Assembly (NCBI GenBank): GCA_031274925.1
Contig: JAISPL010000004.1
Span: forward strand, 1-54,215
DNA from: Syntrophobacterales bacterium
Lineage (GTDB): Bacteria > Desulfobacterota > Syntrophorhabdia > Syntrophorhabdales > Syntrophorhabdaceae
Reading direction: 5' to 3'
DNA length: 54,215 nucleotides
Shown here: in pieces, positions 26,155 to 38,878 of the stretch
How the letters are laid out: each line of letters begins with the position of its first letter
Numbering within the stretch: the stretch's first letter is position 1
The notes under the pieces: model-generated
Databases searched by the model: none
Seen by the model: the letters and a program-made list of their open reading frames with translations, nothing else
Told to the model about the DNA's origin: nothing
Translations under genes and position numbers: made by a program

Positions 26155-26310
26155 GTAGCTGGTCTTCAAGGGAAGGAAGTGAGAATCTTCCGCTGTCCCG
26201 CAACTGTGAAGGTCAAGGCGGCACGCAGGGGCTTTACTGCCCTGCCACTGCCCTTAAAACGGGTGGGAAGGCGCGATAAGCCGCAATACCTGAGCCAGGA
26301 AACCTTGGAT
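26155..26310 (+). promoter_or_regulatory. Cobalamin (AdoCbl-type) riboswitch
   Basis: The conserved core is easy to read: AGGGAAG...GTGAGAATCTTCCGCTGTCCCGCAACTGTGA from 26168, then GCCACTGCCC...GGGTGGGAAGGCG, and the B12 box GAGCCAGGAAACC near 26293-26304. These are the signature blocks of the cobalamin family. It lies 130 bases before a TonB-dependent receptor gene and upstream of btuFCD-type genes, so high B12 should switch off their uptake. The expression platform is discussed as a separate finding. Confidence 0.95.
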
Positions 26311-35168: not shown

Positions 35169-36476
35169 CTATTTCACGATGTTCGACAGCACAAGGACTG
35201 TCGCGTACGGAAAAAGCATGAGAAGTATTATGGAAATTATGTAAGACGGGATATAGTAGAGACTCCCTCTGAACACGGTCCCCAAGGGGATGTCTTTTGC
35301 CATCCCCGCCACGACGTAACAGCAGATACCTATTGGGGGCATGATTGATCCCATGGTGGTGACAATACATATTACCTGGCCGAACCATATTGGGTCATAT
35401 CCCATCTGCATGACGATAGGGTAGAATATGGGTAGTGAAACGAGAAGGAACGCGAGGGCATCCATAACACAGCCTCCTATAATGTAGCAGAGTATAATGA
35501 TCCAGAAAAGCGCCCAGCCAGGAAGGGTGAGGCTTGATATCATGGATGCAGCCTCGTAAGGTAGACGTGTCACAGCTAAGAACCTGCCGAAGATGACAGC
35601 ACCCGCCACTATTGTGAATACGAGACAGGAGATGCGGAGTGTATCCACAATTGAGGCGATAAAGCCTTCCCATGTAATTTTTTTCCGCACGAGGCACAGG
35701 ACGAGCGCTATGGCGCAGCTTGCCGCCGCAGCTTCCGTCGCGGTGACCACTCCGGTGAAAAGGGCATACATGATGATTATAAAGAGAATCGTGATATCGA
35801 TGAGGTCTGGAAGGGCTTTCAGTCTTTCCAGCCATGTGCTTTTTGGGCCTTTAGGTCCCCACTCCGGGTTCCGCCGGCATATATAGATCACGGTGGCCGC
35901 GATAAGGATGGTCAATATGGCGCTGGGGATCACATTCCCGAAGAAAAGCTTACCGATGGATTGCCCCGTATAGAGGCCATAGACCACAAGGACGATACTG
36001 GGTGGGATGAGAACGCCCAATGTTGCGCCAGCTGCTACCGAACCAGCGCTCAGTTGGGGATGGTAGTTGTACTTTTTCATCTCCGGTATGGCAATGGTGC
36101 TCATGGTGGCGGCGGTCGCAGTATTGGAGCCGCTGATTGCGGAAAAGATGGCGCATGCCATGATGGTCGTTATGGCAAGGCCGCCTTTATACTGGCCGAA
36201 CCACTTGTAAGTCACCTTGTAGAGGCCGTTGCTATAGCCGCCGTAATGGGCAAACTCGCCTACCAGGATGAACATGGGGATTACGGTGAGACCGTAACTC
36301 GAGAAGATATTCCAGAGCTCCGTTCCTATCATGCCAAGGGCCGCCTTCATGGAGGTGACATACGCTACTCCTAAGAAACCGACAAGGGCCATGGTAAACC
36401 CTGCAGGTATTTTAAACAGGAACAGGATAGCGAACATAATGATGATGCCGTATATACCAACGATAGGTCCGTCCAT
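35169..36476 (-). CDS. dctM: TRAP transporter large permease subunit DctM
   Basis: The 435-residue protein has about twelve membrane helices and DctM-family segments such as AISGSNTATAATMSTIAIPEMKKYNY, AAGATLGVLIPPSIVLVVYGLYTGQSIGKLFFGNVIPSA and PPIGICCYVVAGMAKD. It is the main sodium- or proton-coupled channel of a tripartite periplasmic transporter, working with the binding protein and DctQ. It follows the dctQ stop with no gap. The exact organic-acid substrate cannot be read from the sequence. Confidence 0.95.
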   Translation of the reverse strand: MDGPIVGIYGIIIMFAILFLFKIPAGFTMALVGFLGVAYVTSMKAALGMIGTELWNIFSSYGLTVIPMFILVGEFAHYGGYSNGLYKVTYKWFGQYKGGLAITTIMACAIFSAISGSNTATAATMSTIAIPEMKKYNYHPQLSAGSVAAGATLGVLIPPSIVLVVYGLYTGQSIGKLFFGNVIPSAILTILIAATVIYICRRNPEWGPKGPKSTWLERLKALPDLIDITILFIIIMYALFTGVVTATEAAAASCAIALVLCLVRKKITWEGFIASIVDTLRISCLVFTIVAGAVIFGRFLAVTRLPYEAASMISSLTLPGWALFWIIILCYIIGGCVMDALAFLLVSLPIFYPIVMQMGYDPIWFGQVICIVTTMGSIMPPIGICCYVVAGMAKDIPLGTVFRGSLYYIPSYIISIILLMLFPYATVLVLSNIVK

Positions 36477-36962
36477 CTAATTTTCCTCTTTCTTCTTAAA
36501 TGTTTTAAGCAAATCAATGAGGAGCGTGAGAGACAACGTTCCGAAGCCCAGTGAGACGCAAAAAACAAAAGGATAGTATATGATCTTCATAGTTTCGGAG
36601 ACTTCATGGGATTCCCATATCTTCATACCCCACACAAAGATCTGCCATGTTACAATTGAGAAGAATATGAGGGTCACGAAATAGTTGATGCGGTCAAGGA
36701 ACCGGTTGAGCGGACCAGGAAATTTTTCGGTAAGAATGTCAACGACGATATGGTCTTTCTTTTTCTGGGTGTAACCGAGGGCAAAGGCGATCACCACCGC
36801 TCCCAAGAACGAGACGATCTCGTAAGCCCCCATGTAAGGCATGTGAAAAATACGGAGCACTACGTTGCTGGTGGCAAGGATCATGAGTCCCAGTACCGCG
36901 ACGCCTCCCAGAATTAGAAAGAGCTTGTTGAGAAATATATTCAGCCTGTCAAGATGATTCAT
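36477..36962 (-). CDS. dctQ: TRAP transporter small permease subunit DctQ
   Basis: The 161-residue protein has four membrane helices and the DctQ pattern (LGGVAVLGLMILATSNVVLRIF, EIVSFLGAVVIAFALGYTQKKKDHIVVDIL). It assists DctM. The ATG at 36962 has TTGGAGAAAACG directly upstream, so it is preferred over an in-frame ATG nine codons earlier. It lies between dctP (77-base gap) and dctM (no gap). Confidence 0.92.
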   Translation of the reverse strand: MNHLDRLNIFLNKLFLILGGVAVLGLMILATSNVVLRIFHMPYMGAYEIVSFLGAVVIAFALGYTQKKKDHIVVDILTEKFPGPLNRFLDRINYFVTLIFFSIVTWQIFVWGMKIWESHEVSETMKIIYYPFVFCVSLGFGTLSLTLLIDLLKTFKKKEEN

Positions 36963-37039
36963 CGTTTTCTCCAAGTAAAAGATCGGCAAGGCGGGTGCCT
37001 TGGATAATGTCCGTTATGCCGCCCGTTTTGCCGCGCCTG

Positions 37040-38071
37040 TCATTTATTTACTTTCTCGTATTTTGCTTTCAAGAGATAGGTATCTTTCAATATTTGCTCT
37101 CCCGGAAGCCCCTGGCCCGTCACCCTCTTTGTGTAGTCGTCGACCATGGGTTTTAAGAGTTTCAGCATCTCGGTTCTGTCTGTCTTTGAAAATGTGATTA
37201 CCTGGTGGTTGTACTTCTGCTTAGACCAGGCAAGGGACTCCTTTACATGGTTGTCCACATATTTTCCCGTCCATTCCGCCTGCTCCCTTCGTAAGTCGTC
37301 GATCACTTTCTTTACATCGGAAGGGAGAGAGTTCCATTTATCTTTATTCATCACCACCGCAAAGGAGGCGACAAAGAGGTTTGCCTCCGTGGCAAAGGGG
37401 CAATAAGCGGCAAAGTTGATGTCTTTCAATACCTCCAGGGAGGAGACGATTCCCTTCACCACACCCTTCTGTATCGCCTCAGGGGTCTCGGATTGAGGCA
37501 TGGCGACAGGGATCCCCCCCAATCTTTTGATTACATCGGCGCCGGTACCCGATACCCTGAGTTCCATGCCTTTCAAATCCTTCAAGGACTTTGCCGGCTT
37601 ACTTGTCATGATGTCTGCCGGAGGGCAGGTAAATAAGGTGATAATCTTCACCTTTTCAAATTCCTTGGGTTTATATTTCTCCACGAGATCGTATAATGTA
37701 AGGCTTGCCGCCTTCGCGGAGGCGAATCCCAGTGGAAGGTCAACTGCCTCCGAGATCGGGAAGCGACCCGGCTGGTAGCTCATGGCGAAGTTGCCGATAT
37801 CGGCCATGCCGGTCAATACCCCGTCGAAGATATTCTTCGCAGGCAGGAGCGTGCTGCCGGGGAATGTTTGGACCTTCACCTTTCCGCCCGTTCTCTTTTC
37901 GACTTCTTTTGCCCATCTCTCCATCTGGACGCAGGGGAAGGTAGTGGCGGGAGGGAAGTTCGCATACTTCAGGGTGATGGTTTGGCTTTTCGCGGAAAAA
38001 GGACAGACGAGGAGGGAGACGGTGAAAAAAACAAAGAGAACGATGACAACTGTTAACTTCCTGCTGCTCAT
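37040..38071 (-). CDS. dctP: TRAP transporter substrate-binding protein DctP
   Basis: The 343-residue periplasmic protein has a signal peptide ending near PFSAKSQ. A DctP fold follows: ITLKYANFPPATTFPCVQMERWAKEVEKRTGGKVKVQTFPGSTL, the Arg-containing LKGMELRVSGTGADVIKRLGGIPVAMPQSETPEAIQKGVVKGIV that usually clamps a carboxylate, and a helical C-terminus. It delivers an organic acid to DctQM. The ATG follows AAAGGGGGTACCCC. A switch-like leader with a terminator lies 112 bases upstream, so the operon appears to be controlled by transcription attenuation. Confidence 0.93.
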   Translation of the reverse strand: MSSRKLTVVIVLFVFFTVSLLVCPFSAKSQTITLKYANFPPATTFPCVQMERWAKEVEKRTGGKVKVQTFPGSTLLPAKNIFDGVLTGMADIGNFAMSYQPGRFPISEAVDLPLGFASAKAASLTLYDLVEKYKPKEFEKVKIITLFTCPPADIMTSKPAKSLKDLKGMELRVSGTGADVIKRLGGIPVAMPQSETPEAIQKGVVKGIVSSLEVLKDINFAAYCPFATEANLFVASFAVVMNKDKWNSLPSDVKKVIDDLRREQAEWTGKYVDNHVKESLAWSKQKYNHQVITFSKTDRTEMLKLLKPMVDDYTKRVTGQGLPGEQILKDTYLLKAKYEKVNK

Positions 38072-38182
38072 GGGGTACCCCCTTTAAATGTGATTATGGT
38101 ACTGCTCATACCCTGGCCGCTCATGCACCTTTTCGGGGAATAGGCACGGCAGAGCGGCGAAGGCCTGTAATATAAAAATAAA

Positions 38183-38272
38183 AAAGGCCATGATACGACT
38201 CATGGCCTTTAAACAAAATCGGCCATGAACGGTGTGAAACCGTCCATGGCCAGATAATTACGGTCTCACACC
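38183..38272 (-). promoter_or_regulatory. Candidate attenuator/riboswitch controlling dctPQM
   Basis: Read on the - strand, segment a GGTGTGAGACCGT (38272-38260) can pair over 13 positions with b ACGGTTTCACACC (38243-38231). Instead, GGCCATGGACGGT (38251-38239) can pair over 13 positions with ACCGTTCATGGCC (38233-38221). The two stems exclude each other. Downstream, AAAGGCCATG (38210-38201) and CATGGCCTTT (38192-38183) form a terminator followed by TTTATTTTTATA. If the first stem forms, the freed CATGGCC (38227-38221) can pair with the terminator's left arm and block it. The pairings are seen; the regulatory logic is inferred. Confidence 0.7.
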
Positions 38273-38328
38273 TACAATATTTGCTGCCACCGCCAGCTTA
38301 ATTTGGATATAATTGTTGCGTTGATCAT
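38272..38328 (-). CDS. Possible 18-residue leader peptide with a Trp-Arg-Trp run
   Basis: ATG at 38328 opens a frame MINATIISKLSWRWQQIL ending at TAG 38274-38272, whose last G is the first base of segment a of the dctPQM switch. The two Trp codons lie 18-26 bases before the stop, the right distance for ribosome stalling to free segment a. There is no Shine-Dalgarno; the predicted transcription start lies at or very near the ATG, so it would be leaderless. Translation is unproven. Confidence 0.35.
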   Translation of the reverse strand: MINATIISKLSWRWQQIL

Positions 38329-38334
38329 AGTAGT

Positions 38335-38363
38335 CATATAGCATGTAGGTAGCGCGAAGTCAA
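38335..38363 (-). promoter_or_regulatory. Candidate promoter of the dctPQM leader
   Basis: On the - strand, TTGACT (38363-38358), a 17-base spacer and TATATG (38340-38335). The start would fall near 38328. It is back to back with the tRNA-Leu promoter 40 bases away. Confidence 0.5.
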
Positions 38364-38403
38364 GTTATATAGATCCAAGCGCTTGGTTGAGGGAGTATTT
38401 TCG

Positions 38404-38433
38404 TTGACAATATACGATCTTTCCGCTTATAAC
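38404..38433 (+). promoter_or_regulatory. Promoter of tRNA-Leu
   Basis: TTGACA (38404-38409), an 18-base spacer and TATAAC (38428-38433), ten bases before the tRNA. Near-consensus sigma70 promoter. Confidence 0.8.
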
Positions 38434-38442
38434 AAAGCTCAT

Positions 38443-38527
38443 GCCTGGGTGGCGGAACAGGTAGACGCAAGGGACTTAAAATCCCTCGGTCCTCGCGGCT
38501 GTACGGGTTCGATTCCCGTCCTAGGCA
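38443..38527 (+). tRNA. trnL: tRNA-Leu (anticodon UAA)
   Basis: A class II tRNA with acceptor GCCTGGG/CCTAGGC, anticodon stem AGGGA/TCCCT around CTTAAAA (anticodon TAA at 38477-38479), a long variable arm (CGGTCCTCGCGGCTG) and T-arm ACGGGTTCGATTCCCGT. The discriminator is A and CCA is not encoded. It has its own promoter. No integrase or att repeat was seen next to it. Confidence 0.96.
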
Positions 38528-38878
38528 TTTCAAGAGATAATTAAAAAATGCAATGAAGTTGGACCTTGTAAAATGCTGGTCCTTGTCATTATCTATGGGG
38601 AAGATAACCGTCGGATTATCAGGAGTGACAAATAATCGCCAAGACATAAGTGGTACATAGAAATCTATCCTGAGTTTTTGTTGACTTCTTGGGAATGGCG
38701 CCGCTTTCGCGGTAAACGTCAATTCACCATTGAAAACGGTGCCGCCAGAGGTACCCCCGCCTACTTCGCCAGGAGACGTATTCTATTGAGAGGCCGCGCC
38801 GCGCAAGGCTGGCATTTTGTCCAGTCCTAACACGGGATGTTCTTCTTGATTAGACCCGCAATGGGTATTCTAAAATGG
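38528..38878. other. 351-bp region without a gene
   Basis: I see no gene. The - strand around 38740-38660 spells short fragments (GVPLAAPFSMVN) that may be debris, but nothing can be named. Confidence 0.4.

Follow-up and report, generated by a model that had tools for sequence, protein, structure and literature searches.

A predicted ribosome-mediated tryptophan attenuator upstream of a TRAP transporter operon in the Syntrophorhabdia

The dctPQM leader and its competing helices

The window, that is, the whole stretch of 54,215 nucleotides analyzed from a Syntrophobacterales bacterium (contig JAISPL010000004.1), contains on its minus strand the operon dctPQM, encoding the solute-binding protein and the two permeases of a TRAP transporter. 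This operon is preceded by a leader (38183-38363) with a promoter, a short open reading frame (ORF) and five RNA arms, here named A to E, and a tRNA-Leu(UAA) gene is divergently oriented (Table 1). The window also harbors a cobalamin riboswitch (RF00174, 73.6 bits) at 26169-26305 of the plus strand.

Table 1. Features of the dctPQM locus and its leader (coordinates are those of the window)
Feature	Position	Strand	Remarks
dctM, large permease	35169-36476	-	
dctQ, small permease	36477-36989	-	
dctP, TRAP solute-binding protein	37040-38071	-	Indole/aromatic-acid group, by sequence and structure comparison
Duplicated segment: tRNA-Leu(UAA), promoter, attenuator	38176-38530	.	Shared by contigs C4 (window) and C45; ends just past the terminator; 85% identity, 379-column alignment
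Terminator 2, arms D and E	38183-38210	-	11 bp; U tract TTTATTTTTA on the 3' side
Arm C	38221-38233	-	State 1: hairpin/terminator 1 with B; state 2: 38228-38221 paired with arm D
Arm B	38231-38251	-	State 1: 38251-38239 paired with C; state 2: 38243-38231 paired with A
Arm A, antiterminator strand	38260-38272	-	Overlaps the stop codon by one base (38272); 98.6% paired with B (32 leaders)
Helix A:B	38272-38260 : 38243-38231	-	13/13 pairs, one G-U
Helix B:C	38251-38239 : 38233-38221	-	13/13 pairs, one G-U
Leader peptide ORF MINATIISKLSWRWQQIL	38272-38328	-	AUG 6 nt past the -10 element, no Shine-Dalgarno sequence; stop UAG 38274-38272
Control codons Trp-Arg-Trp	38287-38295	-	Trp 38295-38293, Arg, Trp 38289-38287
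Leader promoter	38335-38363	-	-35 TTGACT (38363-38358), 17-nt spacer, -10 TATATG (38340-38335)
Divergent tRNA-Leu(UAA)	38443-38527	+	Identical second copy beside the trpB2 attenuator

The original prediction had proposed two mutually exclusive helices of 13 positions with one G-U each, and both are present. It had also placed a terminator with a T tract at 38210-38183, which exists but comprises 11 base pairs instead of 10, and had suggested an antiterminator pairing between CATGGCC (38227-38221) and the left arm of this terminator (GGCCATG, 38207-38201). This pairing was confirmed and is extended by the pair 38228:38200, so that helix C:D contains 8 pairs. The terminator stem ends 112 bases before the dctP start codon, the distance initially given. 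The window copy has no mismatch in any of the four helices. In most homologues a U-rich tract follows helix B:C on its 3' side, and the two terminators are thus probably governed by a single decision; the tail of terminator 1 is weaker in the window copy (GATTTTGT).

The precision of this two-state design exceeds chance: the folding z score of the leader is -4.5, and none of 200 shuffled sequences folded equally well. When the folding of the growing chain was simulated with arm A free, A:B formed at -20.0 kcal/mol before C existed, B:C was slightly favored once C was complete (-25.3), and the combination of A:B and C:D became the minimum free energy structure once D was complete (-34.1 kcal/mol). 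With arm A masked, only B:C and subsequently D:E were formed. At equilibrium the full-length RNA favors the terminated state (-41.5 versus -34.9), and antitermination would thus have to be controlled kinetically, during transcription, as it is in other attenuators.

A Trp-codon leader peptide and its conservation

The promoter TTGACT-17-TATATG was not listed by a stricter consensus promoter scan; a promoter scan of the minus strand between the terminator and dctP found none. The gap between the -10 element and the leader AUG amounts to 6 nt in the window copy and to a median of 8 nt at the equivalent position over 47 leaders, so the leader peptide would be read from a nearly leaderless transcript, similar to what has been reported for S. 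meliloti trpL. Two to four Trp codons were present in 47 leaders. Homologues have 3-4 Trp codons at the control-codon position, as compared with two (WRW) in the window copy and four in the paralogue of the same genome, which makes a relaxed control possible. In the leaders measured, the stop codon is located -7 to +5 nt from the beginning of arm A. Given the size of the ribosome footprint, arm A would therefore be covered by a ribosome that has reached the stop, and left exposed by one that has stalled at the Trp codons.

A blastn search detected matches to the leader in 28 of 60 relatives. We built a covariance model, R1, from 32 leaders, and strong matches (E below 1e-11) were obtained in nearly all of the 46 genomes searched from the class. 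Matches with E above about 1e-10 were ignored because they were mostly unrelated CCATGGCC-type hairpins, many of which matched both strands. Almost every strong match has, 5' of the fold, a short ORF containing a Trp-codon run (up to WWWW), for example MTNAQIKNWWWWRKY, MKHPVINSKWAWWWQTLLV and MIKTAKRTNWAWWWLV. In the 32 leaders, state 1 (B:C and D:E) was 95.9% paired, with double-sided changes in 9 pairs, and state 2 (A:B and C:D) was 99.1% paired, with such changes in 7 pairs, as compared with 25-56% in slid controls for both states. None of 500 shuffles scored as high for either state, although these counts are not probabilities since the rows are related. The original prediction had named the loss of either pairing among homologous leaders, or a promoter downstream of the terminator, as observations that would speak against it. 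Because both pairings are retained with compensatory changes and the promoter is upstream of the leader, neither was encountered. The genes 3' of the attenuators were mostly trpB2 (TrpB-like, NF009057/TIGR01415), and otherwise dctP or an aminotransferase gene that opens an aminotransferase/IOR set. In L046 and L047, CCATGGCC-type terminators resembling terminator 2 precede aroF-like genes (upstream of the DAHP synthase gene), and no Trp-run ORF was found there.

The leader has the features of a leader-peptide attenuator. A short translatable ORF with Trp codons is directly 5' of competing RNA arms; the antiterminator and the intrinsic terminator are mutually exclusive and both conserved; and the position of the stop codon would allow a terminating ribosome, and not a stalled one, to mask the antiterminator strand. 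The leader ORF, arms, conservation, covariation, paralogue and regulon members were all read from sequence. We are highly confident that the leader as such is a ribosome-mediated tryptophan attenuator, and it likely governs dctPQM inside the cell. The mechanism that we infer from the sequence, including stalling, termination and the transport substrate, is as follows. With plentiful tryptophan, the leader ribosome would pass the Trp codons and halt at the UAG, covering arm A; B:C and D:E would then form, and transcription would stop before dctP. With tryptophan in short supply, the ribosome would stall at the Trp codons, leaving arm A free to pair with B, which would release C for pairing with D, disarm both terminators and permit dctPQM expression. 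The transporter would import tryptophan or an indole acid (indolepyruvate or indoleacetate), and the imported indole acid could then be converted into tryptophan by the aminotransferase and IOR-like enzymes that are under the same control.

Regulation of dctPQM had been anticipated correctly, but the implied riboswitch with a carboxylate or an amino acid as its ligand has to be abandoned; that reading had overlooked the leader ORF, which contains Trp codons and ends at arm A. The Trp-run leader peptides of almost all homologues, together with the paralogue that stands before trpB2, indicate that the signal would be the ribosome position, reflecting Trp-tRNA charging. A metabolite-binding riboswitch of an undescribed class would agree with the precise two-state fold and with Rfam, in which, at the gathering cut-off and at E values up to 10, only chance-level matches and no described aptamer family were found over the leader, as the initial statement that no known class was recognized had suggested. 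It is nevertheless very improbable, since no aptamer is conserved beyond the competing arms, the conserved 5' part is explained by the conserved Trp-run ORF, and related leaders stand before trpB2. The two hairpins with U-rich tails might also simply be terminators in tandem, which would insulate dctPQM and not switch; this is scarcely credible, given that insulation would not need an A:B and C:D pairing conserved at the level and with the double changes reported above.

The class of mechanism, ribosome-mediated tryptophan attenuation, is already known. As in E. coli trpL (RF00513), there is a Trp-codon leader peptide, a ribosome at its stop would mask the antiterminator strand, and arms A, B and C correspond to segments 2, 3 and 4. 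Unlike E. coli trpL, the leader lacks a strong segment 1, has a nearly leaderless ORF and contains a second terminator, D:E, coupled via C:D; its targets are not trpEDCBA but trpB2, aminotransferase/IOR genes and a TRAP transporter. The leader did not reach the gathering score of RF00513 (Trp_leader), for which the E. coli trpL control scored 93.1 bits. Ribosome-mediated tryptophan attenuation is also shared with trpL/rnTrpL of Sinorhizobium meliloti, whose transcript starts at the leader AUG and which controls trpE(G) (PMC7298713), whereas here an uptake operon and trpB2 would be controlled by a five-arm relay. Similarly, in Streptococcus suis tryptophan starvation induces the uptake operon trpXYZ via premature termination, but its T-box senses uncharged tRNA directly, without a leader peptide, and the transporter is of the ABC type and not a TRAP system (PMC9382623).

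The trpB2 paralogue and recruitment to dctPQM

A DNA search of the same genome revealed a second attenuator copy (80% identity) on contig C45, before trpB2. At this locus, trpB2 is followed by genes for an aminotransferase, an IorA-like protein and an IorB-like protein; the latter two are named as relatives only, because their scores are well below the curated cut-offs of the indolepyruvate oxidoreductase models. Arms B to D are identical in the two copies, whereas the leader peptide, spacer and loop have diverged. The leader ORF aligns in frame with that of the trpB2 copy (MLNGTIISKSNWWWWQRIL), with a coding gap of 3 nt. The trpB2 attenuator adjoins a tRNA-Leu(UAA) gene in each of the two same-genus genomes as well, which identifies the window copy as the derived one. 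A perfect 12-bp palindrome (CCAAGCGCTTGG, 38375-38386) was noticed between the divergent tRNA-Leu and attenuator promoters; it is a possible operator, also found in the C45 copy and absent from the two same-genus trpB2 loci.

The majority of dctP orthologues have no attenuator. Those that carry it are from the window genome and seven genomes of genus g5, several of which are Syntrophorhabdus sp. in GTDB records. It is missing before dctP in the two same-genus genomes (G001 and G002), and the attenuator-dctP link is thus not conserved in the genus. Among the dctP relatives in GTDB, R1 is absent outside the Syntrophorhabdia, and a scan for W-run ORFs upstream of dctP gave no convincing leader outside Syntrophorhabdus. 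Two g4 genomes have attenuator-like remnants some 210 nt 5' of dctP. That of G005 (L135, 1466-1557) is a clearly decayed copy, in which the Trp frame has no start; that of G016 (L136, 1616-1709 in reverse-strand coordinates) has an open leader ORF and an A:B pairing that looks intact, but terminator 2 is missing, and it is probably decayed. On a DctP tree of 53 rows, the attenuator label needs two changes, or three with the g4 remnants, and a single clade of all carriers was rejected (p-AU 0.011). We conclude that dctPQM acquired the attenuator on at least two occasions, in the window lineage and in Syntrophorhabdus. In G006, a g5 genome with TrpA and TrpC, an attenuator is directly 5' of dctQM without dctP (L042, 5653-6400). 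Attenuator-free dctP orthologues (L058, L061, L062, L066 and others) often have a GTATACAAT-type palindromic stretch, perhaps a repressor site, near a TTGACA promoter, and are often downstream of pdxA.

Transport substrate and tryptophan supply

The predicted DctP structure (pLDDT 91) superimposes on that of Dde_0634 (4nap) with a Z score of 42.8 and an rmsd of 1.6 Å over 308 residues at 46-47% identity. The nearest proteins are 4n6d and Dde_0634 (4nap, 4pgn/4pgp), followed by aromatic-acid binding proteins; the ligands of 4pgn/4nap are presumably indolepyruvate and D-Trp. In fold and sequence, DctP is thus closest to TRAP binding proteins for which aromatic ligands have been resolved. Published TRAP ligands include indole acids, and Dde_0634 (PDB 4nap, 4pgn, 4pgp; Vetting et al. 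2015), a homologue of the window DctP, is reported to bind IAA in two papers citing that study. TrpA and TrpC were not detected in the own genome (97.4% complete), while 14 of 14 control genomes scored, and TrpA/TrpC are absent from most attenuator carriers. Among the g5 genomes examined for these genes, TrpC is lacking in 6 of 6 with the attenuator before dctP and present in 3 of the 4 others (hypergeometric about 0.03, kinship ignored). The substrate is fairly probably tryptophan or an indole compound.

The attenuator might function while the transporter carries a compound that has no connection with tryptophan, such as a different aromatic acid or a C4 acid. The substrate assignment depends solely on about 46-55% identity, and PDB neighbors also bind coumarate, cinnamate and 4-hydroxyphenylacetate, so this reading keeps some weight; it appears unlikely because the same operon acquired a Trp attenuator repeatedly, because most of the genomes concerned lack TrpA/TrpC, and because of the reported indole acid binding by the close relative Dde_0634. 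It is improbable that the leader is a by-product of the tRNA-Leu/attenuator duplication that provides dctPQM with a promoter and terminators and has lost Trp sensing. The reduced number of Trp codons, the attenuator-free dctP of G001 and G002, and the decayed copies would fit such a loss, but two Trp codons are sufficient in E. coli trpL. Furthermore, the intact helices, the frame-preserving gap, the lack of substitutions in arms B to D despite diverging flanks, and the independent recruitment and retention in Syntrophorhabdus argue against it. Taken as a whole, the locus is very likely best explained by a Trp attenuator that was copied from the trpB2 operon together with the tRNA-Leu gene and that controls dctPQM.

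A literature search of open-access papers found none that joins TRAP transporters with Trp attenuation. The TRAP target, the coupled second terminator in a five-arm relay, and the recruitment by duplication together with a tRNA appear to be new. With about even chances, we propose a relay attenuator of five arms in which one ribosome position sets two coupled terminators (A:B/C:D versus B:C/D:E). It would have originated in the Syntrophorhabdia, upstream of trpB2 and IOR genes, and been copied on two occasions to a TRAP operon; the outcome would be a regulon for tryptophan salvage, through import and re-amination of indole acids, in bacteria that lack de novo Trp synthesis. The locus offers a clear example of an attenuator that spread to a new operon by duplication, with the same operon recruited at least twice. 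TRAP transporters are usually annotated merely as C4-dicarboxylate carriers, and here a regulatory RNA hints at the substrate, tryptophan or an indole acid. For largely uncultured syntrophs that apparently lack tryptophan synthesis, these data point to a possible Trp-salvage regulon.
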